Source: Candidatus Electrothrix scaldis (GTDB lineage: Bacteria > Desulfobacterota > Desulfobulbia > Desulfobulbales > Desulfobulbaceae). Taken from it: a stretch of DNA of 64,000 bases. The number at the start of each line of letters is the position of its first letter. The stretch's first letter is position 1. A program made the position numbers and the translations under genes. Positions 16,071 through 63,796 of the stretch are shown here, in pieces. Below the pieces are notes generated by a model. The model saw nothing but the letters and a program-made list of their open reading frames with translations, had not been told where the DNA came from and made no database searches. Location of the stretch: positions 4,739,501 through 4,803,500 of the forward strand of contig CP138355.1 in NCBI GenBank assembly GCA_033584155.1, read 5' to 3'.

Positions 16071-16072
16071 TC

Positions 16073-17539
16073 ATGGAACGCATAACTATTGATCCCATTA
16101 CTCGCCTTGAGGGACACGGGAAGATTGATATCTTTCTGGATGATAAGGGCGACGTTGCCAATTCCTATTTTCAGATCCCTGAGCTGCGCGGCTTTGAACG
16201 CTTCTGCGTGGGCCGCCCCATTGAGGAAATGCCCCTGCTGACCAACCGTATCTGCGGAGTCTGCCCGGAGGCCCATCATATGGCGGCGGTCAAGGCCGCA
16301 GACGCTGCTTACAAGGTCACACCGCCGCGCACAGCCAAGCTGCTGCGCGAGCTCCTCTACATGGCCTTTTACTGCACCGACCATACCACCCATTTCTACG
16401 CCCTGGGCGGCCCGGACTTTATCATAGGCCCGGATGCCCCGGTTGCTGAGCGTAACATCCTCGGTGTTATCCATAAGGTGGGTATGGAGATCGGTGGCAA
16501 GGTCATCCAGATGCGGAAATTCGGTCATAAGGTGGTGGAGATGATCGGGGGCCGCAAGGTCCACCCGGCTGTTGCCATCCCCGGTGGTGTGACCAAGATT
16601 CTCAGCGAGGGAGAGCGGAAAGAGATTGAAGAGATGGGCCGCTGGGCCATTGATTTTGCCCAGTTCAGTCTTCAGGCATTTAACGACATCGTTCTGGCGA
16701 ACCAGACCTATCTGGACCTGATTGTCGGGGATATCTACCGCGATGAGACCTATTATATGGGGCTGGTGGATGAAAACAACAAGGTCAATTTCTACGATGG
16801 TAAGGTGCGGGTGGTTGATCCTGAAGGCAAGGAGTTCTGTAAATACGCGCCCAATGAGTACATGAACCATCTTTCTGAGCATGTGGAGCCCTGGACTTAC
16901 CTCAAGTTCCCTTACCTGAAAAACGTGGGCTGGAAGGGATTTACTGATGGCAAGGATTCCGGCGTGTACATGGCAACCCCGCTCTCCCGCCTCAATGCGG
17001 CAGACGGCATGGCCACCCCGCTGGCTCAGGAACATTATGAAAAGATGTACGAGACTCTGGGCGGCAAGCCAGTCCATCAGCGGTTGGCGATCCATTGGGC
17101 CCGCCTGATTGAGCTGCTCTATGCAGCGGAACGCTGGGTGGAGCTGGTAACCGATCCGGATATCACCTCTTCAGATGTTCATTGCAAACCCACGGAGATC
17201 CCCACTGAGGGCGTCGGTATTGTCGAGGCCCCACGCGGCACCCTGACCCATCATTACTGGACCGATGAGCGGGGAATCCTCACTCAGGTCAACCTGATTG
17301 TGGGTACCACCAATAACTATGCCCCGATTCAGATGAGCACCAAAAAGGCGGCGCAGCATCTGATTAAGGGCGGTAAGGTGAATGAAGGCTTGCTCAATAT
17401 GGTGGAAATGGCCTTCCGGGCCTACGATCCCTGTTTTGGTTGTGCGACCCATTCGTTGCCGGGACAGATGCCGCTGGAGGTGCGTTTGCATGACCAGCGT
17501 GGTGAGCTGATGGATGTGATTAAGCAGTATGTGGATTAA
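16073..17539 (+). CDS. mvhA: Ni-Fe hydrogenase large subunit (MvhA type, group 3c)
   Basis: The 488-residue protein holds the nickel-iron active-site cysteines in RICGVCPEAHH (about 62-72) and DPCFGCATHS near the C-terminus. The 22 residues after that His would be removed by a maturation protease during cofactor insertion; a candidate protease gene lies at 21.5 kb beside hypABFCDE. Together with MvhG, MvhD and Hdr it should oxidise H2 and feed bifurcation of electrons to ferredoxin and a disulfide. It is the last gene of the operon and is followed by a GC-rich hairpin. Confidence 0.93.
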   Translation: MERITIDPITRLEGHGKIDIFLDDKGDVANSYFQIPELRGFERFCVGRPIEEMPLLTNRICGVCPEAHHMAAVKAADAAYKVTPPRTAKLLRELLYMAFYCTDHTTHFYALGGPDFIIGPDAPVAERNILGVIHKVGMEIGGKVIQMRKFGHKVVEMIGGRKVHPAVAIPGGVTKILSEGERKEIEEMGRWAIDFAQFSLQAFNDIVLANQTYLDLIVGDIYRDETYYMGLVDENNKVNFYDGKVRVVDPEGKEFCKYAPNEYMNHLSEHVEPWTYLKFPYLKNVGWKGFTDGKDSGVYMATPLSRLNAADGMATPLAQEHYEKMYETLGGKPVHQRLAIHWARLIELLYAAERWVELVTDPDITSSDVHCKPTEIPTEGVGIVEAPRGTLTHHYWTDERGILTQVNLIVGTTNNYAPIQMSTKKAAQHLIKGGKVNEGLLNMVEMAFRAYDPCFGCATHSLPGQMPLEVRLHDQRGELMDVIKQYVD

Positions 17540-44720: not shown

Positions 44721-48614
<3,894 letters not shown>

Positions 48615-48626
48615 ATTGAAGGGATA

Positions 48627-49229
48627 TCATTTCATCTTCAGCTTGATCTTCCGGCGATTCTCTTCTGTACAGCCAACGCAGCTTAATGTGAGCGTTGGTT
48701 TGTCTTCATCTTTCATGACAGTTAAAGAAATCTGGTCCTTTTCATCTGGAGATAGCCAGCAGATGTTATCACCCGTCTGTCCATCGTAGGTATATTCAAC
48801 CGTTAAGGAGAATGGAGAGGGAGCAATTTCAGTCTCGCACTTTTCGGATGGAGGATCATCTTTATATGGTACTTTAATAAACACTTTCAGATCTTGTTCA
48901 TTTTCATGAGACAACCTCACTTCTGTTTTCCAGAATTTCTCATCACCTTCTAACCCAGGGGTGAGTTCCATTGTACAACTTTGTTGTTGTGCATTGAGGA
49001 CAAACAGCTCCTGTGCTGGATGCCCGTTGCACTCTATCTTTGCGAGGTTCACGGCCGGAGCAAAAGGTGCTAACAGCTTATTGATTAAAGCAGGCCACTG
49101 ATACTCCTTAACTTCATCAAGGCCGCTGGTCTTTTTTCCGCCATTATGAATCCCCAAAGTTAAGATGGCAAAATATACTGCTGTCAGCACGCTCCCAAGG
49201 ATAATGAGGTTTCGCTTATTTTTAGTCAT
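48627..49229 (-). CDS. Membrane-anchored protein of unknown function, end of injection-system operon
   Basis: The 200-residue protein has one N-terminal membrane segment (about 8-27) after a Lys/Arg-rich start (MTKNKRN), so the rest should face the periplasm. The exported part has four or more Cys (IECNG, QSCTM, NICWL, CVGCTEE) and beta-rich, acidic sequence. It overlaps the PASTA gene in an ATGA arrangement and is therefore part of the same operon, but no homologous family is evident to me. Confidence 0.65.
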   Translation of the reverse strand: MTKNKRNLIILGSVLTAVYFAILTLGIHNGGKKTSGLDEVKEYQWPALINKLLAPFAPAVNLAKIECNGHPAQELFVLNAQQQSCTMELTPGLEGDEKFWKTEVRLSHENEQDLKVFIKVPYKDDPPSEKCETEIAPSPFSLTVEYTYDGQTGDNICWLSPDEKDQISLTVMKDEDKPTLTLSCVGCTEENRRKIKLKMK

Positions 49230-50749
49230 TTTCTGTTAGTTACCTTATATTTACCTGGTAACGCCACAGAGGGGCTTAATTTTCTCATAGAAGGAATTCT
49301 AATTGAGCGAGGGTATGTAATCACTACAGTTGATCCAAGCAAAACTCTATTATTCTGTGCAGGTAATTGCTTAGTAACGGTTATATCCTGATGAGGTCCA
49401 GAACGACCTGAATATTTATTTGTTACCTTCAACCCAACACTTTCTAATATTTTTCGTGCGTCAGAAGGCGTTCTCCCTATCACAGGGGGGACAGGTACTT
49501 TGTCTGCTGTAACAAAAAGTTTTACCTTGCTTCCAGGGTTAACATGCTGACCCCCCGATGGGCTGGTGTTAATAATGAGCCCAGGGTCGCTATCTCCTAT
49601 ATCCCGTATTTCTTGCTCTGTTCGTAATCCCATTGATTCTAAGGCAGATTTCGCCTCTGTATAAGAATATCCCTTTAGGGGAGGAATAACGACGACATGC
49701 TTTGCCAATACAATGTTAATTTTGCTTGCAGGCAAAACTCTTGTCTCCTCATCTGAAGAATCAGGAAATTGTCGTAACACTTTGGGTGGTTCCCCGCTTA
49801 CTTCTGTAACTTCTTCATATCCTATTTCCCCTAATTCAAGGCCAGCTGTTACTATTTCATTTTCAGCCTCAGCTATTGTTTTACCAACAACATTCGGAAC
49901 TAAAACGCTTACCGCAGAAACAGAGAATTGTAACGGTCTTTTTCCTTCAGCATTTTTTCCAGGAAGCTCCTCTCCTCCTCTGGGAGTTTGCTTAAGAATA
50001 TATCCTGGCTCCTTGTCACTGAGTTCTTCAATTACAGACGGCGCAAAATTATTTGAGAGCAATTGAATATTAAGTTCTTGGGAATATATTTTACCGATAA
50101 AATTGGGCGTGCTCACCGCAGAAACAGAGAGCTGTAACGGTCTTTTTCCTTCAGCATTTTTTTCAGGAAGTGGATCTCCTCCTCTAGGATTTTGCTCAAG
50201 AATATATCCAGAACCCTCTTTGCTGAGTTCGTAAGTTATATTTATATCAAATCCTTGCCCTTCAAGCTCATTACTTACATTAGAATATATTTTTCCTTCA
50301 TAATTTTTCATTGTTGCTTCAGGCCATAGAACCCATGTAACAGTTCCTCCAATGACCAGAAGTAACGCAAGAACAGCCACAGCTATCAATTTCCACAGCT
50401 TTGGGCATTTTTGCGGAGTAACTTCAACGCTGACCGTTGCACTTTCCACTGCATCCTCAGGTTCCAAAGCATCATAAACCCGCAGGCGAAAAGTGTATTC
50501 ATTTTCCGGAACAAGCTCTTTCGGTGGAGCGGCCTTGACAATGACGGTGGTATCTCCGTCCGCATCAAGGTCTCTTTCTAAAGCCCCTTCAATGCTGATC
50601 CACTCACCTGCATCATCATCTGCACGAACCTGTATACCGTAACGCAGGTCTTTTTCGGAAGCGTTGGAAACGTTAAATTGAAAAGATGCGGATTTGCCAG
50701 CTTGACAGCTTATTTTTTCAGTAGCTGGAGTTATCTTTACTATCGACAT
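49226..50749 (-). CDS. PASTA-repeat membrane protein linked to the injection system
   Basis: I place the start at the ATG at 50749, preceded by AAGAGAA; the frame extends upstream without a ribosome site. The 507-residue protein has an N-terminal Ig-like beta domain (1-110: FQFNVSNASEKDLRYGIQV), a single membrane helix (about 121-142), then five PASTA-like repeats (for example VPNVVGKTIAEAENEIVTAG and IPPLKGYSYTEAKSALESMG). PASTA domains bind peptidoglycan or lipid II in kinases and PBPs. Here they would lie in the periplasm while the Ig-like domain faces the cytoplasm, so the protein could tether the contractile apparatus to the envelope. That role is inference from position. Confidence 0.78.
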   Translation of the reverse strand: MSIVKITPATEKISCQAGKSASFQFNVSNASEKDLRYGIQVRADDDAGEWISIEGALERDLDADGDTTVIVKAAPPKELVPENEYTFRLRVYDALEPEDAVESATVSVEVTPQKCPKLWKLIAVAVLALLLVIGGTVTWVLWPEATMKNYEGKIYSNVSNELEGQGFDINITYELSKEGSGYILEQNPRGGDPLPEKNAEGKRPLQLSVSAVSTPNFIGKIYSQELNIQLLSNNFAPSVIEELSDKEPGYILKQTPRGGEELPGKNAEGKRPLQFSVSAVSVLVPNVVGKTIAEAENEIVTAGLELGEIGYEEVTEVSGEPPKVLRQFPDSSDEETRVLPASKINIVLAKHVVVIPPLKGYSYTEAKSALESMGLRTEQEIRDIGDSDPGLIINTSPSGGQHVNPGSKVKLFVTADKVPVPPVIGRTPSDARKILESVGLKVTNKYSGRSGPHQDITVTKQLPAQNNRVLLGSTVVITYPRSIRIPSMRKLSPSVALPGKYKVTNRK

Positions 50750-51331
50750 AATATTCTCTTTTTTTTCTAAAGGTTCAAAAAATCGAAATAAACGTTCTTC
50801 AAATATAAAGCAAAACACAGGGCTGTAATCCCGCCAAACACAAATATTCCCGCAAAAAAGGACCATTCGGCAGACCAAATAAGTTCAGATCCCCATGCTT
50901 TTCGATCCTGTCTTTGCACGGCGTAGCCCCAGACCTCCCAAGGGCAATTGAAGTAGCAGCAGCGTTCAGCCCCTTTTCCTGCTCCCACCGCATTTCCGGT
51001 CGTATCCTTGCTTACAGCCCCTGCAATAAGGTCGGGGAGAAGCTATATGATCATCCAGCCGATATAATTTAAGGTATAAAAAAGGGAGCAAACATCCGGT
51101 TCTGCCAGATATGAATCATTTCGTAACGGTAGAGGCTGTTCCCTGAAGGCTCCGAGAAATTGCTCATAACAGAGCCTTGAGAATGCAAATGTCGATTTGA
51201 GCTGAGGCATTAGAAAGGGTAAATTGAAAAGATCCGAATTTGCCTGCCTGACAGCTTATTTTTTCAGCTACGGGTGTAATCTTGACGAACGACATAAATA
51301 TTTTTTTGTTTTTCTAAGCAGAAGATAAGGT
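50750..51331. other. Degraded stretch, 582 bp, inside the injection-system operon
   Basis: It holds an N-terminal remnant of a second PASTA-type gene (51212-51296) and a 73-codon minus-strand frame (50767-50988) ending in a plausible membrane segment (FFAGIFVFGGITALCFALYL) without a clear start. I treat both as decay products. No full gene is supported. Confidence 0.5.
51212..51296 (-). pseudogene. Remnant of the 5' end of a second PASTA-type gene
   Basis: Read on the minus strand it starts ATG TCG and encodes a near copy of the first 28 residues of the PASTA protein (KITP, EKISCQAGK, SFQF). The matching part of the intact gene is 50668-50749. The sequence then falls out of frame and homology ends. 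Confidence 0.7.
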
Positions 51332-51925
51332 TTATGAGTCTACGGTAATAAGTTCATCAGTGATGTGTGCTGGCTTCTCATGCGCCACAATCCGTTTAAT
51401 AAGTTCTTTGTATTTTTCCGCACTAGATGGAATAGTCACGCGAATATGAAAGGGTGGCAATGTATCCCCTGAGTCGGTTTGACCTTCTTCCACTTTCACC
51501 CCGGTTAATCCAGTTGCCGTCTGGAGCATCTGCTCCAGACCGTAGCGTGTGCCGCGCAATTTTGCTAATTTTACCGCAGTCGCAATCAACTCGCGCAAGT
51601 AACCGGCTTCGGTCGGCAGAGTACGCTCCTGCCAGTGACGCGGTGCTGTACCGACTTTGTTCGGTTCAAATAAATATGTCAAATTAAGCCAATGAGCAAG
51701 CATGGGCAGGAAGGCTTCGCCAGTCCGGCGCGGATCAAAAAACTGGTCCGAATTCTGCAGGATCTCCTCTATCGGAGCATGCATTTGCGCCATAATTTCC
51801 AGAATAACGCCCAAAATCGAACCGTCCTGCGCTGTTCTCTGCATGACCATAGGCAGTAATTTTTCAATTTCAGAACGTTTCTTTTTAATTTCAGAACGTT
51901 TCTTTTCAATTTCAGAACGTTTCAT
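51332..51925 (-). CDS. Phage tail protein I-like baseplate component
   Basis: The 197-residue protein matches the tail-protein-I type of contractile injection systems (FDPRRTGEAFLPMLAHWLNL, LRELIATAVKLAKLRGTRYGLEQML, ITDELITVDS), which links baseplate wedges to fibres. Its N-terminus is a three-fold repeat of about 7 residues (KRSEIEK), coded by a 21-bp tandem repeat, forming a charged helix. It lies 28 bases after the baseplate J gene and is the last core structural gene of the operon. Confidence 0.8.
   Translation of the reverse strand: MKRSEIEKKRSEIKKKRSEIEKLLPMVMQRTAQDGSILGVILEIMAQMHAPIEEILQNSDQFFDPRRTGEAFLPMLAHWLNLTYLFEPNKVGTAPRHWQERTLPTEAGYLRELIATAVKLAKLRGTRYGLEQMLQTATGLTGVKVEEGQTDSGDTLPPFHIRVTIPSSAEKYKELIKRIVAHEKPAHITDELITVDS
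51862..51924. repeat. Three-unit 21-bp tandem repeat at the start of the tail protein I gene
   Basis: Units based on AATTTCAGAACGTTTCTTTT on the plus strand repeat three times with one or two changes. They encode the repeated K-R-S-E-I-(E/K)-K heptads at the N-terminus. Unit number could vary between strains. Confidence 0.75.
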
Positions 51926-51953: not shown

Positions 51954-54563
51954 TTATTGATCATGCTCAACAACAACTTCATGAACATCGGAACAGAACA
52001 GCCACGTCGGCGGCAGGGTTACCTTATCGCTGAATTCATTAACGGAACAATTTTTATAAGTCTTCCCAAGATCATAACTGCGATATATTCCGTGTGAACC
52101 GACCGCCAGGAGACAATGCTGATTATCCTTAACAGGGCGTTGAGCAACACCTTCAACAGTATAAAATTTCTCCAATTTTTCGACCTTAAGACCGCAATTG
52201 ACATCTGACGGGTTCCATTCCGAATCCCCCGACCCCGTATTCAGCTGTAAAACACCACGACGGCTACTACCAGCAATGACCTGTCGGCCCATAAAGTCCA
52301 GGGAGGTGCATGTTCCGGCATCCCACCCTTTACTGAATTTCTTCCAGTGTTTTTTCGAGTCGCCCGATTCCTGAAGCTGCCAACGCGCACAGCCTTCTCC
52401 GGGGTCACTGCCTATAGCTGCAAATCCAGCCCATAAATAAAGTTGCGTCTCACCGTACTGCACTTTCAACAGCTTGATATTCTTTTCTTTCTGTCCGATT
52501 CCTTTAAATTCCTTTCCGGAATCGACAGATAGATACACTCCTGTATCCGGCGGAGTGGCCACTGCAATATAGTTGATACCGGCCTGATCAGTGGCAACGG
52601 CTACAGAACGGGCCTTTAACAGCTGCATATTCCGATCACGACTATTAGGCATCGGTTTCCATTCCTGATCGGTTCTGATACTGTAGACAAACAGCCCGTT
52701 TTCAGTGGCAACAAGTAAATCCGGTCGACCGTTACGCTCCATCCATGCAATATCATTAATTTTGTAATCCATTCGACGTATCGGCTCCCAGTTTTCTCCG
52801 CAATCACGGGACAAATACAGTTTATGTTTATTATCAGTACTTGATGAACGGCTCCAAACCGCCACTAAGCCAGCAACACCAGCGGTCACCTGATTAGCTT
52901 TCGGAAAACTTTTTACACCCTGCACTTTTTCGTCGGGCCACTGTCCAATACACTCCCAGCCATCTCCATTATTAAGGGACCGGAAGATTGAATCTCCAGA
53001 TGCGGCATACCAAGTATCACTATGCCAATCATCAACATCAATCGAGGTTACATCGCAGGAAGGTGCCTGACTGACTTTGAGCTTAACCGGGTCAACAGTT
53101 TTGACTCCGGGATCCTCGTTGAGGATGCGATAAATATCATAGGTTGTAATTGATTGCCCGAAAGGCCAGCCCGCTGGTTGCAGGTGCTCAGTACACAGCG
53201 GGTTAATCATCTGATACAAACGCTGAGTAATCCGCTGCTTCACAACCTCGCAATCCTCTTCCTGATGTACCTTCAGCGAAACGCAGGCTTTCACGGTTTT
53301 GTAGTGGCACCAGACCACACTGCAAATGCTGCCCAGTGGGCTGCATTTTTCAAGATTGCTGCGAATCTTCCGAGCGACCTCCTCGTTTTCAGCCCCATGC
53401 AAAATTTCTGGCGTCATCGGATCATCAGAACTTGATATCTGCGGCACTAAAACAACTTCAACTGTTCCTCGATCAGCATACTTCCAGTGTGAATGCTTTG
53501 TGTAGGCATGGACTCGACTAGCCTGTTCAGACTGCCCGGCAATCAGCTCAAAGTCCTGAGCTGTTACAGCCCTCTTGAGAGAATGTAATTCCAAAGGACC
53601 GCGTATTAATGCATTGTCTAATGATTCTAAATCGCTCCCTCCATTAGCCTGTTCAGGATTAGTAACCTCAAGCTTAGCCCCTTCAAGCCCCTCAACTTTA
53701 TCAATGAGCTTGACAAGTGTATCCGGTAGGAGATTACCTTTCCGTCCTCCGCCTATGCGGAACCGTGCAATGATACTGCGCTTGAATTTAGGGGTTGCTG
53801 CAATCGCCCCCGTTGTCGATTCGTTACCTTTCGCTTGATGCTGTTCGAGTGAAGGAGCAAAGCTGATTGTTCCTGCGGCCCGGTCAGCTAAATAAACATG
53901 ATCATCAGGACTGACGCTGGCAAAGGTTTCAACTTCCTGCCATATATAATACTTTTTCTTGTTAAAAGGTATACACCTGTCACCGACATTATCAGGCAGT
54001 TCTTCTTCCTCGGCTTCAATAGCGATAATCAGGTCCAAATACCCGGTCGGTGCAATAAGCGGTGCCTGCGGTAATTGCAGGCGTAATCCGGGCTCCCCTG
54101 TCCCTCTGCCTACTTCTGTAAAACCGAGCCACTCGGAATGTATTGCCGGGACATCAATAAAGGTTTGCCCGACAGAAAGCTCGACATCTCGTAAGGTCAT
54201 AAACTGTGGACCTGATTGTTGACAGCCGACCTTGGTGTTTTTTTTGATTATCACAGGATCATTTGCTGGCTCCGATAGGCTGAAACGAAGGTTTGTGACT
54301 GCTGCGGAAGGGGGCTGCAGTTCAACACCGATTAACCGCAAAAGTTCAATATATACCTTTTCCGGTAGACGGTTGACACGATAGATCATCGCATCGGTCA
54401 GATAAGCAAACAGCTCCAGAAGAATTACGCCCGGATCACCCGGATCACCCGGATGGCTGGGTTTCCATCCAGATGATGATGATAATGATTCGGCATAGCT
54501 AATAGCTTCATCCCGCAATTTCTTAAAGTGGCGATCATCCAGATTCGGCGAACGTAGCGACAT
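51954..54563 (-). CDS. Baseplate J-like protein with C-terminal BNR/beta-propeller extension
   Basis: The 869-residue protein has a baseplate J N-terminal part (about 1-520: DPGVILLELFAYLTDAMIYRVNRLPEKVYIELLRLIG, then a beta-rich core and RIGGGRKGNLLPDTL), as in the Afp11/12 wedge proteins. From about 525 to the end it has repeated WYAASGDSIFRSLNNGDGW-, KLYLSRDCGENWEPI-, TGVYLSVDSGKEF- and GIYRSYDLGKTYKN-type blocks. Such S-x-D-x-G-x-x-W Asp-box repeats form six- or seven-bladed BNR propellers. Attaching one to a baseplate wedge is unusual and could give a receptor- or envelope-binding ring. It overlaps gp25 as TAATG. Confidence 0.82.
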   Translation of the reverse strand: MSLRSPNLDDRHFKKLRDEAISYAESLSSSSGWKPSHPGDPGDPGVILLELFAYLTDAMIYRVNRLPEKVYIELLRLIGVELQPPSAAVTNLRFSLSEPANDPVIIKKNTKVGCQQSGPQFMTLRDVELSVGQTFIDVPAIHSEWLGFTEVGRGTGEPGLRLQLPQAPLIAPTGYLDLIIAIEAEEEELPDNVGDRCIPFNKKKYYIWQEVETFASVSPDDHVYLADRAAGTISFAPSLEQHQAKGNESTTGAIAATPKFKRSIIARFRIGGGRKGNLLPDTLVKLIDKVEGLEGAKLEVTNPEQANGGSDLESLDNALIRGPLELHSLKRAVTAQDFELIAGQSEQASRVHAYTKHSHWKYADRGTVEVVLVPQISSSDDPMTPEILHGAENEEVARKIRSNLEKCSPLGSICSVVWCHYKTVKACVSLKVHQEEDCEVVKQRITQRLYQMINPLCTEHLQPAGWPFGQSITTYDIYRILNEDPGVKTVDPVKLKVSQAPSCDVTSIDVDDWHSDTWYAASGDSIFRSLNNGDGWECIGQWPDEKVQGVKSFPKANQVTAGVAGLVAVWSRSSSTDNKHKLYLSRDCGENWEPIRRMDYKINDIAWMERNGRPDLLVATENGLFVYSIRTDQEWKPMPNSRDRNMQLLKARSVAVATDQAGINYIAVATPPDTGVYLSVDSGKEFKGIGQKEKNIKLLKVQYGETQLYLWAGFAAIGSDPGEGCARWQLQESGDSKKHWKKFSKGWDAGTCTSLDFMGRQVIAGSSRRGVLQLNTGSGDSEWNPSDVNCGLKVEKLEKFYTVEGVAQRPVKDNQHCLLAVGSHGIYRSYDLGKTYKNCSVNEFSDKVTLPPTWLFCSDVHEVVVEHDQ

Positions 54564-54991
54564 TAACTTTCTCCAACCATTAAATCCATTGTCAGTACCA
54601 GTTGATCATCAACGCGAGTGCTCCGCATGCGATAGTCAAGGGTTATAACCAGGTAAGCAGCATTCTCAGGGGATCTTTGCGCATCCAATGCCAATATTTC
54701 AATTCGTGGTTCCCATTGATCCAGTGCCCGTCGCACATAGTGAATAGCAAGTCCGGCTGTCGTATCGTCATTAGGTGAAAATAACAGGCGATGCAGATAA
54801 CAGCCATAATCCGGTCGCATCACTCGTTCTCCCGGACGCGTGGAAAGCAACATCAGAATAGCCTGGCGAATTGATGCTGTTCCTTCGGTTGTCTGTAGCG
54901 TTCTGTCAGGGTTCGTTACTAACCCTGTTTGTCCTTCATGCAGATCAAAATCCGGATGGATAAAACGAAGGGCCTGATAACGTAATGACAT
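54563..54991 (-). CDS. gp25/GPW-type baseplate protein
   Basis: I use the ATG at 54991, with GAGGT 8 bases upstream; a TTG at 55009 would lengthen it by 6 residues. The 142-residue protein has the gp25 signature: SIRQAILMLLSTRPGERVMRPDYGC, then LLFSPNDDTTAGL. It starts sheath assembly in contractile systems. It sits between the PAAR-position gene and baseplate J. Confidence 0.88.
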   Translation of the reverse strand: MSLRYQALRFIHPDFDLHEGQTGLVTNPDRTLQTTEGTASIRQAILMLLSTRPGERVMRPDYGCYLHRLLFSPNDDTTAGLAIHYVRRALDQWEPRIEILALDAQRSPENAAYLVITLDYRMRSTRVDDQLVLTMDLMVGES

Positions 54992-54992
54992 A

Positions 54993-55337
54993 TCAAATAC
55001 CTCGGACAAAATTTTGGCCGGGACGGGTCACCTGATATTTTGACGGAGGCACACTGTCAGTAACACCGTTCACGGTACCCAGACAAACAGGCTTTCCGTT
55101 AATGCGAATAAAACGTGAGTATCCGGTACTGACAGAAAGTGTCAAGGTACATGGTTTACTGTTCGTGCTTGCAGGATGCTTACAACCGCTGATCGGGCGT
55201 TTAAGAGTATTCGCCTGAATACTTACCCGCCCGCCCGAAATCTTCACAAATGACTGCGTAACCTTTAGATCCACTTTACCGGCAGCAGGGTGCAGACAAT
55301 GCAGTACACTTTTTTCTGTCAACCAATAATGCATCAT
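54993..55337 (-). CDS. PAAR-position spike-tip candidate, 114 residues
   Basis: The small protein is beta-rich with Cys and His (CLHPAAGKVD, GCKHPASTNSKPCTLT, GKPVCLG), compatible with the metal-tipped cone of PAAR-like proteins (Afp10 position), although the classic PAAR repeats are not evident. Its place immediately downstream of the VgrG-like spike gene, with a 4-base overlap, is the main argument. Confidence 0.55.
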   Translation of the reverse strand: MMHYWLTEKSVLHCLHPAAGKVDLKVTQSFVKISGGRVSIQANTLKRPISGCKHPASTNSKPCTLTLSVSTGYSRFIRINGKPVCLGTVNGVTDSVPPSKYQVTRPGQNFVRGI

Positions 55338-56854
55338 TTTTGCTCGAAGTCTATTTTGTTTGCCCGAAAAAGCATTTTTTTTCCAGGTGCTTCGATTGTC
55401 AGGTCACTCTCCGCATGCAAAATTACTTTTTTGGGATGCAACTCTATGTGGCTGCCATCTCGGTTCGTTACCTTCACAGTACCTTGTTCGTCATCCAAGC
55501 ACAATTTCTGACCTCCCGGTGTGGTAAAGGTATAGCATTTTACGCCACCGCTTCGAATCCCGTCATCCGGCGGGCCAGCCTTGCCGTAGAGACCGCCGAT
55601 CACGACGCCCTGACTTGGGTTTCCGTCAATAAATAAAACCAGTACCTGGTCCCCTGCATCCGGCAGTGCGATGAGTCCTTTATTGCGTCCTGCCCCAGGA
55701 TATGTGACTTCCAGCCAGAGAGATTCAAGCTTACCCAAATCTGGGAACTCCACCTTGATACGCCCTTTATTTTCCGGGTCATGGATATCGCTGACAACCC
55801 CCATTGAAGACTGAATATGCTGTTTTGGAGTGCTGAAAGCAGGAGGGAATGTGTCAAATTCACAAAGATAACCTTGTGAACGGTTTAAAATATGCTTGAC
55901 GTTTGACAACACATACCGGCCTGTTTTCTGTTTGGCGGCCACCCCGGCCAGACAGACCTGTTGACCGGGACGCAATAACGGGTTTCCTTCCGCCACTCCC
56001 TGAAGCACAGCTTCACCAGCCTTCCGCCTCTCCAGCATAGCCTGCCCCAAAGCCGCTGCTTCCTCAGTGCTGCCAAGCGGCTGGCCTGTCAGAAATCGTT
56101 CGCCGGACACCCCTGAATGGCCCGACCGCGTCTCGTGCTTTTCCGGTTCAGGATATCCATCCGCGCCTGCTTTACCTGAAACAGCTTCAGCTGTTTGCGG
56201 GTTCCAACCAAAGACCTCCACAGAACGACAGGCAGGTTCGGTATTGCGTGTCGTTGTTACACTGAGTAAATTCCGTTCCCACTCAAGCTCTATCATGTTT
56301 CGCTCAATTCCAGACAATGAAAAAATATGAAGCTCGTCATCCCATAGAGCGAAATAACGACCGTATCGTTGGATATTCTCGTTCAATAATGCCAGATCCG
56401 ACTGTTGCCACTGCATGATTTGCCTGAATCGAATTGCCGGGCCGTGAACTTGAATGTGCAAACCCAGATCTCCGGTCAGCTCTTTCACCAATCCAGCTAA
56501 CGAAATATCTTCAAACTGACGTAGATGCTGACGTTTACGTAAGCGGTGCAACAAATCGTAACTGCGAAGGATCATATTCTGATGACCATCGGCTGTATAT
56601 TGCTGTTCGCATGCCGTCACCTCACCGGTAAAAAGACAATTCGTCTCGTTACCGATCCAAATTCTGATCGCTGTGCCTAAGGCGACAGAATCTGAAGCGG
56701 ACATATTCTGCATGCAAAATGTTATCTCACATTGAGCAGGCAGACAAAGCACTTGCTGTACAACAATACTTTGAAGAGCATTCCGGAGCCTGCTCTTCAA
56801 GGGCTGTTCACCGAGGTATATTTGCAATGGAGGGAGCTGAGATGCTTGTATCAT
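55334..56854 (-). CDS. VgrG/gp5-like spike protein of the injection system
   Basis: The 506-residue protein has a gp27-like N-terminal half (IRIWIGNETNCLFTGEVTACEQ, LRSYDLLHRLRKRQH) and a gp5 OB-fold (MGVVSDIHDPENKGRIKVEFPDL, ALPDAGDQVLVLFIDGNP). It ends with a beta-helix-like tail (IELHPKKVILHAESDLTIEAPG). It forms the trimeric puncturing hub. It overlaps the LysM gene upstream (ATGA) and the PAAR-position gene downstream. Confidence 0.9.
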   Translation of the reverse strand: MIQASQLPPLQIYLGEQPLKSRLRNALQSIVVQQVLCLPAQCEITFCMQNMSASDSVALGTAIRIWIGNETNCLFTGEVTACEQQYTADGHQNMILRSYDLLHRLRKRQHLRQFEDISLAGLVKELTGDLGLHIQVHGPAIRFRQIMQWQQSDLALLNENIQRYGRYFALWDDELHIFSLSGIERNMIELEWERNLLSVTTTRNTEPACRSVEVFGWNPQTAEAVSGKAGADGYPEPEKHETRSGHSGVSGERFLTGQPLGSTEEAAALGQAMLERRKAGEAVLQGVAEGNPLLRPGQQVCLAGVAAKQKTGRYVLSNVKHILNRSQGYLCEFDTFPPAFSTPKQHIQSSMGVVSDIHDPENKGRIKVEFPDLGKLESLWLEVTYPGAGRNKGLIALPDAGDQVLVLFIDGNPSQGVVIGGLYGKAGPPDDGIRSGGVKCYTFTTPGGQKLCLDDEQGTVKVTNRDGSHIELHPKKVILHAESDLTIEAPGKKMLFRANKIDFEQK

Positions 56855-57606
56855 TTCCGAACATCATCCTGAGCAGGAATCTGCAAAACTGACCCAACAT
56901 CCAACTGTAAAGGGTCATTGATATTATTAACCCATGCCAGCAACCGCCACAAGGCGGGATCTCCATAATATTTGTAGGCCATCTGTTCTAGCCGCTCTGC
57001 TTCACCGGTTTCGGAAAAAGCGTCCGTAACTGCTCCGCTGACAGCATGCGTCAATGTAGTACTTTTCAACTCAGGTATCTCACCGGAAAAATCATCCGGT
57101 AGTTCCAAAGGAAGCTTAGCTCCGCCTGACATATCATCGCGGCTTTCCGTCACCCTGCGCATGCGTAAGCGAAGAAAAGAACGCTGAGGAATTCCATCTG
57201 CTGTAAAATGCTCAAGCCGCTCGGCAATATCTGTTATTACACCGAGAAAATTAAATGCTTTTCCCCAAATAAAACGAACCGACTCCGGGTGCCAGCGCCC
57301 TTCATCCGAAGCATAATTTTCTGTCAGCAGCCAAAGAGGTTTTGTCAGCCGACGCACGTCCCTATATTCGATTTGTGTACCGGAATTTGAGAGATTGATA
57401 TCAAAAAGAAGGTTCACTGTCAGCAAGGTAGTGCCTCCGCCGGTAAACAGCAGAGGATCATCAGTTAAATTGCTCCCTGTCACTAAGCCGCCATGCAGAC
57501 TTCGCGTTTTTACACCTGCCTGTCGCTGCATCAGCAGACTTTCCGGGTTGAGCAGACAGGGAATTTGCTCATTTTTAGACTCAATAAGAAACATTACGCG
57601 TTCCAT
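56851..57606 (-). CDS. LysM-type tube/hub protein (Afp7-like)
   Basis: The 251-residue protein begins with a beta-rich hub domain (IESKNEQIPCLLNPESL, TTLLTVNLLFDI) and ends in a LysM-like module (QMAYKYYGDPALWRLLAWVNNINDP...LDVGSVLQIP), the layout of Afp7-type proteins that connect tube and spike. A second start at 57594 is possible. It overlaps the spike gene and, by 13 bases, the upstream unknown gene. Confidence 0.85.
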   Translation of the reverse strand: MERVMFLIESKNEQIPCLLNPESLLMQRQAGVKTRSLHGGLVTGSNLTDDPLLFTGGGTTLLTVNLLFDINLSNSGTQIEYRDVRRLTKPLWLLTENYASDEGRWHPESVRFIWGKAFNFLGVITDIAERLEHFTADGIPQRSFLRLRMRRVTESRDDMSGGAKLPLELPDDFSGEIPELKSTTLTHAVSGAVTDAFSETGEAERLEQMAYKYYGDPALWRLLAWVNNINDPLQLDVGSVLQIPAQDDVRK

Positions 57607-58856
57607 AATGTCCCCATCATTTCTTTCCTGCGTTGTTTTTCTCGCTGTTCTGACGTGGTGGAGTGATCAGTTCGAAACTGTTCCTGAAAAGTCTCTTCAA
57701 TAAGAGAGGGCCATTCCTTGGCAGTAAATTTCGTTTCCGACATACCTGTTGAATCTAATTCGTCATTTTTAAGTGAAGGCCACGTTCCTGTTACATGCAA
57801 AAAACTTTGTCGAGTCTGTCCGTTTTGTTGAGAAAAATCAAATTGAAGGGAGTTATCAGCGTGTTGTCCAGTAGGAGTAATTTTTTGAAAAGAGCAAGAC
57901 GGTTCTTCTATGGAGTTTTCGGATCTGGACAACGTTCCGTTGACCGTATTGCTCCTCAACCCATCCTGTTCTCTTTTTTTCTCTACAGATTGACCCGACA
58001 CAGAACAGAACTCATTATATTCGTTTTTCTCCTCTAATCTCTTATGATGAATTTTGTTTTCAAACGTACTTTCTCCAAAATTGTCGCTTCGAATATCAGG
58101 TTGTTTTTTAATTAAATATTCATTTTTCGTCGGTTTTCTTTTTCTTCTGTTCAGTTCGTTGGCTGGCAACTCCCCTGAGTTCATCTTGTTCCGAGGCGGA
58201 ACAGCAGGTGAATATACATTTTGTCGAACCGATAAGGTGCGCCGGTTCATATCAGTCATTTTTTTATTTTCAGTCAAACAGGTTGAAATACAATTTTTCT
58301 GTGAAATATCTTCAACGTTTTTTTCCTGTTGAGAACTTTCAGCAGAGCGTGTATCTGCTTCGGGACTCTGAGCCTGCAAAGGTACGCTACGTAAATTGTT
58401 ATGGTGCCAGTCGCGGACACAGCTTTTTCTCTTAGGTGTTACAAGATGCTGCTGCAAGGAATGAAAAATTCCAGTTACTCTGCGCTTTATTACACTCCTG
58501 TTTTTATCTTCAGGCGCAAGCGGTTGTTCAATGGCTGAACCTTTATCGCTGGTCAATTGTTCTGAAGCAAACTCATGTTGAAATGCCTGTGCCGATGTTG
58601 CCTGAGAACTCGGCAGTTCTTCAGAGCTTTTTGGTTCTGCATTAAAATAAATCACCCCTTCATAATCTTCGTTTTTCAGCAACTGCGGTGCTTTTTCTTG
58701 GACCAAGTTCAGCCAGTGTTGAGGGGGGCCGGATGCATTGCCTTCAGCCACCTGTCTTGCCGAATCACTCCTTGCCCCTTCGGCCTCAAAAGCAGCAAGC
58801 CTGCTTCCCCAGTCAATGAGCATGGAGCTGATTCTTCTCAAGAATCGCTTAAACAC
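57594..58856 (-). CDS. Large, mostly disordered protein of unknown function within the injection-system operon
   Basis: The 420-residue protein has an ordered start (SMLIDWGSRLAAFEAEGARSD, GPPQHWLNLVQEKAPQLL) and a short conserved-looking end (REKQRRKEMMGTLWNA). In between lie about 320 polar residues rich in Ser, Gln, Glu, Lys and Asn that look disordered. No membrane segment or catalytic motif is visible. By position (between tube and LysM protein) it replaces the small Afp6-type gene. It could be a cargo, a length-determining or a chaperone-like protein; no single reading is favoured. Confidence 0.6.
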   Translation of the reverse strand: MFKRFLRRISSMLIDWGSRLAAFEAEGARSDSARQVAEGNASGPPQHWLNLVQEKAPQLLKNEDYEGVIYFNAEPKSSEELPSSQATSAQAFQHEFASEQLTSDKGSAIEQPLAPEDKNRSVIKRRVTGIFHSLQQHLVTPKRKSCVRDWHHNNLRSVPLQAQSPEADTRSAESSQQEKNVEDISQKNCISTCLTENKKMTDMNRRTLSVRQNVYSPAVPPRNKMNSGELPANELNRRKRKPTKNEYLIKKQPDIRSDNFGESTFENKIHHKRLEEKNEYNEFCSVSGQSVEKKREQDGLRSNTVNGTLSRSENSIEEPSCSFQKITPTGQHADNSLQFDFSQQNGQTRQSFLHVTGTWPSLKNDELDSTGMSETKFTAKEWPSLIEETFQEQFRTDHSTTSEQREKQRRKEMMGTLWNA

Positions 58857-59286
58857 CGGGATCCCGCTCTACCGATTCAGCCTGCAAGGTCATTCTTTCA
58901 ATAGCTATATTGTTGCCGCCAGCATCAAGCTCTGCTCCGCGCCACTCCGATGGCCAAACCCCGCTTAAGTTCCAGCGTGTTTTTTCAGTAACACCATCCG
59001 TTCCCAAAATAATAATGGAAATTTCTTTACGCTCAACATTACCGTTGACTGCTGTCATAAACCAGTCCCACATACTTCGAGTAGCGGTGAGTCCCCATTC
59101 ACAAAGGATAGGGGCAACAGTAGTTTGTACGGGCAGTTTCCGCACAACATTGGGCATTCCACCCTCTCGGTACTCAAGGCAGGACACTTTCATGCCCAAA
59201 CCGGAAACGCGTGTGAAATAGCCTGCCCTCTCCCCTTGTAATTCCAGAATAAAAGCGTAATTACGAAAAATATCCTGTTGCGGCAT
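58849..59286 (-). CDS. Inner tube protein (Hcp/gp19-like)
   Basis: The 145-residue protein has the contractile-tube pattern: NYAFILELQGERAGYFTRVSGLGMKV, then WGLTATRSMWDWFMTAVNG, WNLSGVWPSEW and ERMTLQAESVERD. It would stack as hexamers inside the sheath. A strong AAAGGGGA site precedes the ATG. Only one tube gene is present. Confidence 0.9.
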   Translation of the reverse strand: MPQQDIFRNYAFILELQGERAGYFTRVSGLGMKVSCLEYREGGMPNVVRKLPVQTTVAPILCEWGLTATRSMWDWFMTAVNGNVERKEISIIILGTDGVTEKTRWNLSGVWPSEWRGAELDAGGNNIAIERMTLQAESVERDPGV

Positions 59287-59389: not shown

Positions 59390-60619
59390 TTACATTTCCG
59401 TCACCTCGGACCCGCCTTGCCACTGTCCGACACGAAAGATAATAAATTCCGCAGGTTTTGATGGTGCAATTCCTATATCAACAATCAATCTTCCTTCATC
59501 CACAGATTCCTGAGGATTGTTTCCTGAGTCACATTTAACAAAAAATGCTTCGTTTTGCGATGTTCCGACGAGTGCGCCTGCCTGCCACTGAAGCTTTAAA
59601 AATGCTGTAATGTCACGGGTTATTGATTTTTGTAATATCGTATCATTCGGTTCAAACACTGTCCACGACGTACTGCGTTTTATTGATTCCTCAATCATTA
59701 AAAATAATCGGCGCACATTAATGTAACGCCACTCGGGATTATCCGTCGATAAGGTTCTTGCTCCCCAAACACGGATACCTTCACTGGGAAAGTAACGAAT
59801 ACAGTTAACATAATTGCTATTTAAAGTACCCTGTTCAGCAGCGGTGATGCGTTGTGTCAACCCCGTGCAGGCTCGGATACCTATATTGGCCGGGGCTTTA
59901 TGCACACCTCGCACTGTGTCTGTTCTCGCATAAATACCGGCAATATGGCCGGAAGGAGGACATTTCACTTTTTCATTGGTAAGAGGACTTGTCATGAAAA
60001 GATGGGGAATATATTGAGCAGCAAATGATGTTGGTCGTGCTCGTCCTCCTGTAGATTTCCCTCCTGACCCTGCGGCGCCCTCGGAACCAGATATAGATGG
60101 CGATTCAACAGCAACAATGCTCATTTTTTCGGGATCATCGAATGATTCCGGACCGTCAAGAATGGCAAAACAATTCTTCATGTTTTCACAATAAGTAATC
60201 AATGCATCGTAATCAGATGGCGTTTGACGTCCGGGAGCTGCAACTAGAGCAACATCCTCATACCCTTTGAGACGTTCAATGCCAGTCGCAATGCTTTCTT
60301 TTGCAACATTAACAATATAACAGTATGTACCGCCGTTGCTAAAAAAACCGTAGACTGCATGAACAAAAGAAATATCTATAGAATTTTCATCTTTAAGTTG
60401 TTTTTTGTCCTCTGGTAAGAATTTTCTGGAAAATTCTTCAAAATTATTACATGGGATCGGTTTGTTATCATCTTTGTTCTTATCGTTATTGTCGTCGGTT
60501 TTTACCTTTACCGGTGGTGCGTTCCCGATAAATGCACAGGTCGTAGTGGATACCGCAGAAATAGGTTTGGAACCCGTGGATTTTTCCTCAATATAAACAC
60601 CAGGCGTATTATAGTCCAT
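59390..60619 (-). CDS. Contractile tail sheath protein
   Basis: I choose the ATG at 60619 with AAGGAG 8 bases upstream over a TTG at 60625. The 409-residue protein starts MDYNTPGVYIEE and has sheath motifs: PISAVSTTTCAFIGNAP, GRQTPSDYDALITYCEN, SGHIAGIYARTDTVRGVHKAPAN, GIRVWGARTLS, YINVRRLFLMIEESI, and an ITDELK-like end VDIGIAPSKPAEFIIFRVGQW. An Asp/Lys/Asn-rich insertion (DDNNDKNKDDNK) lies near residue 42. It is the only sheath gene. It starts within a few bases of the preceding stop. Confidence 0.93.
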   Translation of the reverse strand: MDYNTPGVYIEEKSTGSKPISAVSTTTCAFIGNAPPVKVKTDDNNDKNKDDNKPIPCNNFEEFSRKFLPEDKKQLKDENSIDISFVHAVYGFFSNGGTYCYIVNVAKESIATGIERLKGYEDVALVAAPGRQTPSDYDALITYCENMKNCFAILDGPESFDDPEKMSIVAVESPSISGSEGAAGSGGKSTGGRARPTSFAAQYIPHLFMTSPLTNEKVKCPPSGHIAGIYARTDTVRGVHKAPANIGIRACTGLTQRITAAEQGTLNSNYVNCIRYFPSEGIRVWGARTLSTDNPEWRYINVRRLFLMIEESIKRSTSWTVFEPNDTILQKSITRDITAFLKLQWQAGALVGTSQNEAFFVKCDSGNNPQESVDEGRLIVDIGIAPSKPAEFIIFRVGQWQGGSEVTEM

Positions 60620-60621
60620 AA

Positions 60622-61293
60622 TCAAAACTCCTTCTTGTTGATGAATATTTCAACCGGAACATGTGTAATGGACACCGAGGTGCGATGTAAATACTTTTTA
60701 TAATTCACCACGACATCCTGAGTAGTTGGCTGTGGAGGAACAGCCGAAAAACAAAAGCAACCCTTTGAATCCGTTGTTGCGGATAAGTTGAGGTTTGGCA
60801 GGTCTACCCTGGCTCCGACTAACGGAAGATGCTCGGAGGAAAAAACTCCTCCGTAAAATTTGATGGTTGGAGTCAGGTGCAGTTCCGGAGCTTCAGTAAC
60901 CAAGGGCATGGGATGAACATCCCGATCCTTGCTATATATAATGCTCAACCAGAAACCTGGTCTTGCCGAAACCCCCAGCGAAAGCCAGACTTGAGGATCT
61001 GTCGGGGACAGTTCCAGTTCTATTTCAGAATGTTGCATTGCAGCAAAAGCCAGTTTCTGCAGAATATTATGAGCAACGTTTATATCCTTTGCCGACGTGG
61101 AAACCAAATAACGTAATGTCAGCTGTAACGGTGCTTTTTTATTCCTGTAGCTCGGGGCAACCGGTAATAAATCGTGCAGGAAAAAAACAACAGAAGGAAT
61201 ATCCGGTTCCGGGATAAACTGGTTATTCACCTGAACATTTGAGTCAAGTACCTCTGTTGCCCATGTTTTCAAAAGTGAGTTAACGGTCTCCAT
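60622..61293 (-). CDS. DUF4255-type tube terminator with C-terminal beta-sandwich domain
   Basis: The 223-residue protein begins like the DUF4255 cap proteins (VNSLLKTWATEVLDS, LTLRYLVSTSA, LLPVAPSYRNKKAPLQL), which cap the end of the tube and sheath in injection systems (Afp16 position). After about 145 residues it has a carboxypeptidase-regulatory-like segment (PLVGARVDLPNL, TTDSKGCFCFSAVPP). It is the first gene of the operon. No promoter was identified in the 250 bases upstream. Confidence 0.8.
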   Translation of the reverse strand: METVNSLLKTWATEVLDSNVQVNNQFIPEPDIPSVVFFLHDLLPVAPSYRNKKAPLQLTLRYLVSTSAKDINVAHNILQKLAFAAMQHSEIELELSPTDPQVWLSLGVSARPGFWLSIIYSKDRDVHPMPLVTEAPELHLTPTIKFYGGVFSSEHLPLVGARVDLPNLNLSATTDSKGCFCFSAVPPQPTTQDVVVNYKKYLHRTSVSITHVPVEIFINKKEF

Positions 61294-61551
61294 GTACTTT
61301 TCCGGTCAGATTATCGCCTGAATGTTAACGTCTTGATGGTATTTCTCCAACAAGCACAAGGTGTATCCCATGTTGGGTACTGCAATTCTGCATAAAAAAT
61401 CAAGAAAAAATGCCGGAATGAGGTGATTGCTGGTAAGACACCCGAAATTTATATCCGGTAATAAATTTTATTTGCATCGTATTTAATCTTTGATACCATT
61501 GTCAATATATATATTTATTCTCTATGAAAAAAAAAGAAAGGGTTGAACATT

Positions 61552-62256
61552 ATGCGCCGTTGGATCACTTATCTTTCATGGGCATTGATAGCAATTATTG
61601 TTGGAATTGAGGTGAAATCCGACAATGTAATTGAGTGGGTTGCCAAGTTGAAAGAGCTTGAAAAGGCAGTCGTTCCAGGCATGGGGATCAAGTCCATGGT
61701 GCTTATTGACGGCATTTTGCTATACTCCTGGAGCGTCATCAAGCTGGGTGCTTTTTTATCGGAAAAGGTTTTGACACCTGCAGTCAAAATCTGTAATTTT
61801 CTGTTTTTCCTTGCAATGCTCATCTTTTCATTTGTAATTATAGGAAGAGCTGTTACACAGCTGATGTTGATGATATCCTTGTTGCTGGCCGTCCCTTTCG
61901 GCACTATTGTCTACATGGTCAAATATGCCGAGTTCCAAACAACAACTGCCTTGGCAATACTCGGCATGCTGTTTGCTTTGAAACTTTCTTTTACCGCCTC
62001 TCTTGTTGTTGGAGAAAAACGTTTATTTGAAGATTATCGGACGTTTTTACTTCTGTTGCTTTTTTCATTCATCGCCAATTTTTTAATAAATTTTTTGCAT
62101 GCAATTGCACCCGGCTTCCTGGTCAGTATAACCGATGCCGTTGCTGCCATTGTCGTAGCAGTAATTGCAATTATTTGGTTGCTCTATATGTTTCTTGATT
62201 CTCTGTGGGGTGTGATCACGTTGCTTTTGGATGCGGTTGGCATTGCATCTAGATAA
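61552..62256 (+). CDS. Polytopic membrane protein of unknown function, divergent from the injection system
   Basis: The start is the ATG at 61552 or an in-frame TTG at 61543; GAAAGGG lies upstream. The 235-residue protein has about six hydrophobic segments (for example ITYLSWALIAIIVGI, LFFLAMLIFSFVIIG, FLLLLLFSFIANFLINFL) with short loops and no transporter motif I know. Its place beside the operon start suggests, but does not show, a link to it. Confidence 0.6.
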   Translation: MRRWITYLSWALIAIIVGIEVKSDNVIEWVAKLKELEKAVVPGMGIKSMVLIDGILLYSWSVIKLGAFLSEKVLTPAVKICNFLFFLAMLIFSFVIIGRAVTQLMLMISLLLAVPFGTIVYMVKYAEFQTTTALAILGMLFALKLSFTASLVVGEKRLFEDYRTFLLLLLFSFIANFLINFLHAIAPGFLVSITDAVAAIVVAVIAIIWLLYMFLDSLWGVITLLLDAVGIASR

Positions 62257-62295
62257 AATCCCGGTTAAAAGTGATCAGATCAGGTTGCGCAACGA

Positions 62296-63796
62296 AGGCC
62301 GCACCCCGGACGGTAAACCCGCAGGTGGCTGGGACTTAGCCGAGCTGCGTTCTGTCCAGGACTGGTATGTGCGCTACGCCCTGATGGGGCCCTGCGGCGG
62401 GGGGTGCTGGACAAGGCCGGCAGCGAGGTGGTGGGCGGGGTGGCGGTGGTGCGTTACGGCGATAATCCCTTGGCCGCCATTGAACGGATCAAGGAGAAAA
62501 TCCGGGAGATCTCGCCGGGCCTGCCCAGCAAGACCCTGGCCGACGGCACGGTGAGCAAAGTCACCATTGTCCCTTTTTACGACCGCTCCGGCCTGATTCA
62601 CGAGACCCTGGACACCCTGAAGACCGCCCTGAGCGAGGAGATCCTGATCACCATAATCGTGGTGCTGGTCACGGTCATGCATCTGCGCAGCTCGGTGCTC
62701 ATCTCCTCCCTCCTGCCCCTGACCGTGCTCATGGCCTTTATCGGCATGAAGGTCTTTCATGTGGATGCCAACGTGGTGGCCCTGTCCGGCATCGCCATCG
62801 CCATCGGTACCATCGTGGACATGGGCATCATCATCTGCGAGAACATCCTCACCCGGATGGACGAGGCCGGGCCGGAGGAATCCACCCTGCAAATCATCTA
62901 TGAGGCCTCGGTGGAGGTGGGCAGTGCCGTGCTCACTGCGGTATCCACCACCATTGTCAGCTTTCTGCCGGTCTTCACCATGCAGGCCGCCGAAGGCAAG
63001 CTCTTCAGGCCCCTGGCCTACACCAAAACCTTTGCTCTGATATCCTCAGTGGTCATCGCCCTGACCGTGTTGCCGCCTCTGGCCCATATCCTCTTCCGAC
63101 GCAGGAAGGAAGGCAGAGCTTCCTGGCGAATCCGCTTTGCCCTGCCCATCCTGCTGATCATCGCCGGGGCTGTCCTGGCCTGGAAGGTCCATTTCCTCGG
63201 TCTGATCGTGCTCGGCTTCGGTTGCTATAGGCTGATCCTTCAGTTCCTGCCCAAGAAGCTCTCGCCCCTCCTCACCCGGCTGGAGAACTGGCTGGTCATC
63301 CTGCTGGTCACGGTGCTGCTGGCCCGGAGCTGGCAGCCCCTGGGGATTGAGAAAGGGGCATGGGCCAACTTCTTCTTTGTCGGCCTGCTCATCGGCGGCC
63401 TGCTGGGATCGTTCCAGGTCTTCCAGTGGCTCTATCCGCACCTGCTGCGCATCTTCCTGCGCCGAAAACTGGCCTTCCTGACCCTGCCCCTGCTGATCGT
63501 GATCGGCGGGGCAATGGTCTGGCTGGGCGTGCCCAAACTCACCGGCTGGCTGCCGGACAGCATCCGCCGCACCAAACCCATGATGGGCCTGGCGCACAGC
63601 TTTCCTGGACTGGGCCGGGAATTCATGCCCGCCCTGGATGAGGGATCCTTCCTCTACATGCCCACCACCATGCCCCATGCCGGACTGACCGAGGTGCAGG
63701 AGGTGCTGGCGACCCAGGATCGGGCCGAGACCCCGCTGGATCCGGCACCGCTCTCCATGATCGAGACCATCATCAACTACCATCCCGAATATCTAG
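62296..63796 (+). pseudogene. Broken second copy of the cusA-type pump gene
   Basis: This is homologous to 45228-47080 of the intact pump gene at about 90 percent nucleotide identity by eye. It begins at GRTPDGKPAGGWDLAEL. It has a deletion of roughly 290 bases (frameshifting) at 62390 and a 51-base deletion at 63726, and ends after NYHPEYLE where unrelated sequence begins. The rest of the frame (62404-63796) is still open, so the damage is recent. It lacks both ends of the gene and cannot make a working pump. Confidence 0.88.

Follow-up and report, generated by a model that had tools for sequence, protein, structure and literature searches.

The baseplate J protein encoded in a 64,000-nucleotide stretch of the Candidatus Electrothrix scaldis genome (the window) carries, after its J core, a region that is predicted from its structural model to be an Asp-box beta-propeller. 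The propeller occupies the same position within the J proteins of a single clade and is accompanied by co-conserved membrane genes. By analogy with Streptomyces CisA and with the membrane partners of thylakoid and haloarchaeal contractile injection systems (CIS, phage-tail-like machines), we infer that the propeller serves an envelope-anchored CIS as its surface for docking or triggering, a reading to which a probability of about 0.5 is given.

The J gene (51954..54563, minus strand, stop codon included) encodes a Cis11-like protein of 869 amino acids, whose core comprises residues 1-495 (53079..54563, minus strand) and is defined by Pfam, TIGR02243 and 9GTP matches. The Pfam family Baseplate_J (PF04865) matches residues 259-453 with 36.6 bits (cut-off 21.1), the NCBIfam model TIGR02243 gives the 869-aa protein 199.9 bits (cut-off 155.8), and the closest solved J protein by sequence, as found by phmmer in the PDB, is that of the S. 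coelicolor CIS (9GTP), with residues 1-115 and 138-496 aligned to 9gtp_1K at an E value of 8.7e-50. Genes for sheath, tube, gp25, spike and tail-I proteins are all found in the operon with the J gene, as expected of a member of the J family. A long insertion near residue 130-136, present in most of 18 other J proteins (484 residues in L081, about 150 in 9GTP), is missing in the propeller J proteins, and likewise in L013 and L014, which have no propeller. The 9GTP structure has 12 chains, with two Cis11 per wedge (PMC12237407, excerpt); since this is the nearest solved homologue, the six copies of J assumed in an earlier note on this DNA may instead be twelve.

The region after the core was modelled with AF2 (residues 496-869, 25 sequences), giving an all-beta structure with a mean pLDDT of 87.5 and a pTM of 0.88, while a first model of the full-length protein, made from 5 sequences, had a pLDDT of 52.6 and was set aside as poor. 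In our own grouping of strands, the model consists of seven blades of four strands each, and the predicted propeller extends over about residues 505-842 (52038..53051, minus strand). Among the structures matched by VIA-align, the yeast Elp chain 8asw_B (Z 27.9) and GH74 xyloglucanases (Z 26.5-27.8, rmsd 2.9-3.4, 306-321 residues aligned) are tied with WD40 chains (Z about 27-28). The best Foldseek matches are GH74 enzymes, at 11-16% identity, and YCF48 (5oj3_A, E 1.8e-7) is also found among the matches. By sequence, a profile of the propeller family matches the BNR hydrolase 3b7f (4e-10), the GH74 enzyme 6p2k (9.1e-10) and sortilins (about 5e-4 to 1.3e-3). The strict Asp-box pattern S.D.G..[WFY] occurs three times after the core and a relaxed pattern five times, and neither is found before it; 24 of the 25 aligned propeller J proteins have one to three strict boxes and L093 has none. 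No Pfam match in the post-core region exceeds its cut-off: Sortilin-Vps10 (PF15902, residues 507-622) stays at 22.9 bits against 33, short of family membership, and BNR_6 at 12.9 against 27. GH74 xyloglucanases have two propellers per chain, and the 374 residues modelled here form a single one. The beta-propeller and the repeated Asp boxes that the earlier note had read from the letters are thus both borne out, and the structure prediction proposed there as a check returned a propeller model for residues 496-869. Its extent needs correction, because the note had placed it at 51957-52990 (residues 525-869), and the start really lies near residue 505 (about position 53051), with the last 27 residues or so falling outside.

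These last residues (843-869; about 51957..52037, minus strand) form a conserved C-terminal J motif, identified by pairwise identity and by similar ends in other J proteins, and lie outside the confident propeller, with pLDDT values of 53-59. In 25 homologues, residues 845-866 have a mean pairwise identity of 0.595, compared with 0.426 for the propeller, and ends resembling the motif were observed in 3 to 6 of 18 J proteins without a propeller. At the C-termini of L145, L146_0 and L147 the motif profile outscored 500 of 500 shuffled sequences; in L012, L013 and L081 its score was reached by 3, 6 and 10 of 500 shuffles, and in the other 12 of the 18 it did not stand out (108 to 500 of 500). The end of the S. 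clavuligerus J protein is a weak case, with 75 of 2000 shuffles matching the motif as well. Given that the conserved motif resembles the end of some non-propeller J proteins, sequence comparison makes the propeller look like an insertion immediately ahead of the last J strand and not an appendage, a reading well supported in some J lineages and weak in others. The fusion to the C-terminus of J, as first described, is better read as an insertion with a conserved J motif beyond it. In the J proteins of L145 and L147 the propeller's site is taken by another stretch, about 180 residues long.

The propeller J protein is not confined to this genome. No other genome with a full-length match was found in the host's own family (73 genomes searched, own included) or among 57 relatives; the phylum sample (395 genomes) contains one genome besides the host, and the class of that second genome contains four in 192, that genome counted. 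The propeller J proteins score at least 659.6 bits in these genome searches and every other match at most 100.3 bits, with no close relative of the J core lacking a propeller. A scan of contigs using the propeller alone retrieved 24 loci, and a J sequence stands in frame ahead of the propeller in 23 of them, the remaining locus beginning at the propeller because its contig begins there. According to the record titles, many of them of MAGs, these loci belong to Pseudomonadota, Thermodesulfobacteriota, Chloroflexota, Actinomycetota and Planctomycetota, and one of the records, from Desulfobacteraceae (JAABTQ010000051.1, genome G549), is of the host's own phylum. Members of the clade include Thiococcus pfennigii, Sulfitobacter algicola, Catellatospora and Rhodovulum. 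Plasmid records with a match of any extent number 53, and 5 of them span 80% or more of J (one Deinococcus, three Rhodovulum and one Paracoccus), Deinococcus being a sixth phylum, and in the Streptomyces and Streptantibioticus plasmids listed it is the J core that is matched and not the propeller. J proteins with similar extensions, suggested in the earlier note as an object of search, thus exist in five phyla and on plasmids of Deinococcus and Rhodobacterales. As the loci were found through the propeller, the frequency of its loss cannot be told from them. Neither the 869-aa query (0 of 7 candidate stretches confirmed) nor the propeller J alignment (0 of 18) gave a confirmed match in viral contigs, and tblastn found none in phage records, so that within those collections nothing points to a prophage.

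In a tree of J cores, a branch with a support of 100/100 separates all 25 full-length propeller J proteins from 14 non-propeller ones. Four of the 18 non-propeller proteins (L015_2, L015_3, L144_0 and L018_1) were left out as the weakest core matches apart from L146_1, and the tree is to be read with two warnings, one of long branches that meet, those of L013 and a second protein with the propeller J proteins, and one of an odd composition in five rows, including the window's. L086 was dropped as a duplicate of L077, L058 is the same protein as L086, and L095, L097 and L104 were left out of the J alignments because contig ends cut them. The window's J protein groups with three gammaproteobacterial ones (100/95) and apart from the others of its phylum, a placement suggestive of transfer. 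The propeller is somewhat less conserved than the core, with mean identities of 0.426 and 0.486, and the two sets of identities correlate with an r of 0.93 over 300 pairs.

The genes surrounding J, all on the minus strand unless stated otherwise, make up a compact CIS operon. Next to J lie a Tail_P2_I protein, a Cis12-like wedge component (51332..51925, Pfam 38.1 bits), and a gp25-like sheath initiator (54563..55009, 87.7 bits), followed by a small conserved protein in the spike-tip position (54993..55337), kept in relatives and without a Pfam match above cut-off, for which a PAAR-like role is presumed from its position. Further on are a VgrG-like spike (55334..56854, Phage_base_V and Phage_GPD), a tube initiator of the CIS_tube family (56851..57606, 44.4 bits), a 420-aa protein without a family match and variable among relatives (57594..58856), the inner tube protein (58849..59286, Phage_T4_gp19, 115.4 bits), the contractile sheath (59390..60625, Phage_sheath_1 and 1C) and a probable cap protein (60622..61293) with a putative C-terminal carboxypeptidase-regulatory-like domain (CarboxypepD_reg, sub-threshold at 28.4 against 32.3), whose relative in L089 matches Pvc16_N with 26.7 bits (cut-off 27). 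Among relatives the recurring order is cap-like protein, sheath, tube, variable protein, tube initiator, spike, small protein, gp25, propeller J, tail-I and then a single-pass membrane protein (Ig-TM). None of the 13 window proteins compared with Pfam was assigned to a tail-fibre family.

Three membrane-associated genes complete the module. The Ig-TM gene (49226..50752, minus strand), identified by PASTA (141.2 bits), hydropathy, alignment and linkage, encodes 508 amino acids from its ATG, with an N-terminal Ig-like domain of about 110 residues, one transmembrane segment and five PASTA stretches, the segment and the topology being read from hydropathy alone; its product is the proposed anchor. 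The others encode a 200-aa protein with an N-terminal hydrophobic segment (48627..49229, minus strand), without a Pfam or NCBIfam match, and a 237-aa polytopic protein (61543..62256), on the plus strand here and without a Pfam match, and both are conserved in the module.

Some further features of these loci were observed. The CIS genes form a low-GC island (0.41-0.48) between two high-GC (about 0.62) copies of an RND transporter gene, which we take to be of the CusA type, at 44721-48614 and 62294-63795 of the window (the latter running on into L020); the copies are mostly about 90% identical, the second lacking roughly the first 500 bases and having internal gaps, and the duplicated gene may mark how the island arrived. 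Between the Ig-TM and tail-I genes, positions 51204-51312 repeat, over 109 nucleotides and with 78% identity, the start of the Ig-TM-PASTA gene (50658-50766), perhaps as the remnant of a second Ig-TM copy, since L096 and L097 have two Ig-TM genes each. The tail-I protein begins with a K-R-S-E-I-E/K-K repeat, encoded by three 21-nucleotide tandem repeats (51861-51923). In L105, a Chloroflexi member, an FHA domain (56.6 bits) is fused to tail-I (11154-12194), which hints at regulation by phosphorylation. The host genome also has a second, different CIS cluster (L018, G000:C1:4140000-4159900) with a 1271-aa J protein lacking a propeller.

The linkage of the membrane genes to the propeller was followed in 28 loci, namely the window, four found in the genome searches and 23 that the scan contributed after removal of one duplicate. 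Of these loci, 25 gave tail-I, 24 Ig-TM, 20 the small single-TM protein and 22 the polytopic protein. Many of the proteins counted had themselves gone into the search models, though five of the 24 Ig-TM proteins had not. Contig ends cut three of the four loci without Ig-TM (L082, L095 and L104), and in the fourth, L098, neither tail-I nor Ig-TM was found in the 2.0 kb beyond J. Of the 24 loci with an Ig-TM protein, 20 have PASTA in it according to Pfam; of the exceptions, L092 has the repeats in the next reading frame, L093 has DUF11, and L097 and L105 have no Pfam match, while the second Ig-TM copy of L096 has PKD in its outer half. The linkage with PASTA genes that had been suggested as a comparison is therefore real. 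Three of the five plasmid loci were read, and all three, which are independent of the models, have Ig-TM (Deinococcus 118.6, Rhodovulum 67.5, Paracoccus 99.4 bits), with PASTA in it and the polytopic protein also there; the database annotation at these loci reads 'PASTA domain-containing protein'. Among eight non-propeller CIS loci, Ig-TM was found in none, L018 giving a marginal match of 16.4 bits, and the polytopic protein in one, L081 (148 bits).

In whole genomes, the Ig-TM profile is matched strongly (at least 152.6 bits) in exactly those genomes of the two overlapping samples that have a full-length propeller J (2 of 395 and 4 of 192), the next best match scoring 34.6 bits; sequences from four of these five genomes are part of the profile, so that their scores are inflated, but the gap below them does not come from this. 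The profile alignment was built without L078, L084, L099, L100 and L105 and without the second L097 copy. Weak matches, up to an E value of 0.001, occur in 21 and 11 further genomes, and among the genomes with a match to the J query and no propeller J (17 and 18, respectively) in 0 and 1, the single case being G556 (192 sample), at 24.5 bits in an 8807-aa frame. Since the operon is inherited as a block, this linkage does not single out the pair of propeller and anchor. In a mirror-tree comparison with the core factored out, distances of the Ig domain and of the propeller have a partial r of 0.27, with 5 of 2000 permutations as high (18 loci, 153 pairs); the signal is not specific, because the N-terminus of J does better against the Ig domain (0.41).

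These observations can be combined in a model in which J is the Cis11 wedge protein of a compact, membrane-linked CIS. Inserted before the last J strand, the propellers, 6 or 12 of them, would be expected to project from the rim of the baseplate and would dock at the producer's own envelope and trigger firing. The Ig-TM protein would use its cytoplasmic Ig-like domain to retain the extended particle or to capture it when it fires, and its outer part, made mostly of PASTA, a fold that binds peptidoglycan, would grip the cell wall. The topology of the anchor, its contact with the propeller, the anchoring and the triggering are thus all conditional. Among the functions offered in the earlier note, docking to the producer's own membrane is the best supported, and receptor binding on a target is less likely. 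A bolder and tentative extension holds that these loci could form a separate, widely transferred class of envelope-anchored CIS, in which bitopic proteins that grip the wall are clamped at their cytoplasmic Ig domains by 6 or 12 iris propellers, and that the loop before the last J strand could be a general slot in which CIS lineages place the domain deciding how they act.

Other roles for the propeller have to be weighed. Parts that bind a target usually change faster than the rest, and the propeller is only a little ahead of the core in its rate of change, the two evolving in parallel. This, together with the conserved membrane proteins that accompany the propeller, makes it rather unlikely that the particle is released and that the propeller ring is a lectin-like adhesin for target-cell receptors, replacing tail fibres, even though some of the relatives in sequence and fold are enzymes acting on glycans (GH74, sialidase), the fibres of the eCIS group eBAP3 carry propeller lectins (PMC12923769, excerpt) and in AlgoCIS the cage built from Alg11 domains contains two potential carbohydrate-binding modules (PMC13314943, excerpt). 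A wedge-to-wedge structural or gating part, which would replace the mid-protein insertion of other Cis11 proteins and stabilise or time the iris, agrees with the missing insertion near residue 130-136 and with the passing of the firing signal by the Alg11 cage (PMC13314943, excerpt), but leaves the coupling to the Ig-TM gene unexplained and is considered improbable. The match to YCF48 would fit a folding or assembly scaffold, YCF48 being an assembly aid for photosystem II, but the propeller belongs to a structural wedge subunit and no client is known, which makes this role very unlikely. An enzyme of the GH74 or sialidase kind can be practically dismissed, because, although GH74 enzymes are the best Foldseek matches, there is one propeller of about 340 residues against matched GH74 chains of 685-778 residues, aligned in part, identity is as low as given above, and the NF045728 hydrolase model scores 42.4 against a cut-off of 175.

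For the docking reading, a J protein with a propeller, encoded in several phyla alongside membrane proteins that grip the wall, suggests that a CIS may be docked to the cell's own envelope in a manner not described so far. Literature searches among open-licence papers retrieved nothing on this combination in a CIS, the available text of a catalogue of eCIS receptor-binding domains does not report propellers in Afp11 (PMC12923769), and the words propeller and PASTA have 0 occurrences in the accessible text of the Roseiflexus CIS paper. It is an open question how contact with the cell's own membrane is made by injection systems that lack a T6SS membrane complex, and the propeller and the Ig-like domain are two small folded candidates for direct contact testing, for which named members of the clade are available in Thiococcus pfennigii, Sulfitobacter algicola, Catellatospora and Rhodovulum.

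Among known systems, the Asp-box propellers of GH74, sortilin, YCF48 and BNR hydrolases have the fold and the motif in common with this one, but none is part of an injection baseplate, and the eBAP3 propellers are located on the fibres and not on Afp11/J (PMC12923769, excerpt). In haloarchaeal CIS of the T6SS mode, a conserved gene for a polytopic membrane protein, the proposed anchor, is linked to a subset of clusters including anchored systems (PMC11566945, excerpt); the differences are the polytopic nature of that anchor and the absence of the word propeller from the available text. A closer likeness, a C-terminal Cis11 extension with a membrane-spanning partner, is seen in the thylakoid CIS of Anabaena (7B5H), where the extension contacts the TM-bearing Cis13 (PMC8894136, excerpt), although this partner is fibre-like and the word propeller does not occur in the text available.

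With type IId, the Streptomyces-type cytoplasmic CIS, the window shares a single-TM gene just downstream of the baseplate genes, as judged from position and hydropathy, but differs in having a domain after the Cis11 core: the 9GTP chain has 652 residues, the core alignment ends at 614, leaving no room for a propeller, and the S. clavuligerus protein also lacks one. Streptomyces CisA is a membrane protein needed for firing, and its gene follows tail-I, in the same place as the Ig-TM gene; in S. clavuligerus (L151) this position (14625-16379) is occupied by the gene for a 584-aa protein, whose one TM lies near residue 403. According to excerpts of PMC12237407, CisA is bitopic with its N-terminus inside, its gene lies just downstream of the baseplate genes, and experiments did not succeed in confirming its contact with Cis11. 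The cytoplasmic part of CisA is largely unstructured and its outer domain is a different one, in contrast to the Ig and PASTA parts of the Ig-TM protein, whose topology, judged from hydropathy, may nevertheless be the same as that of CisA.
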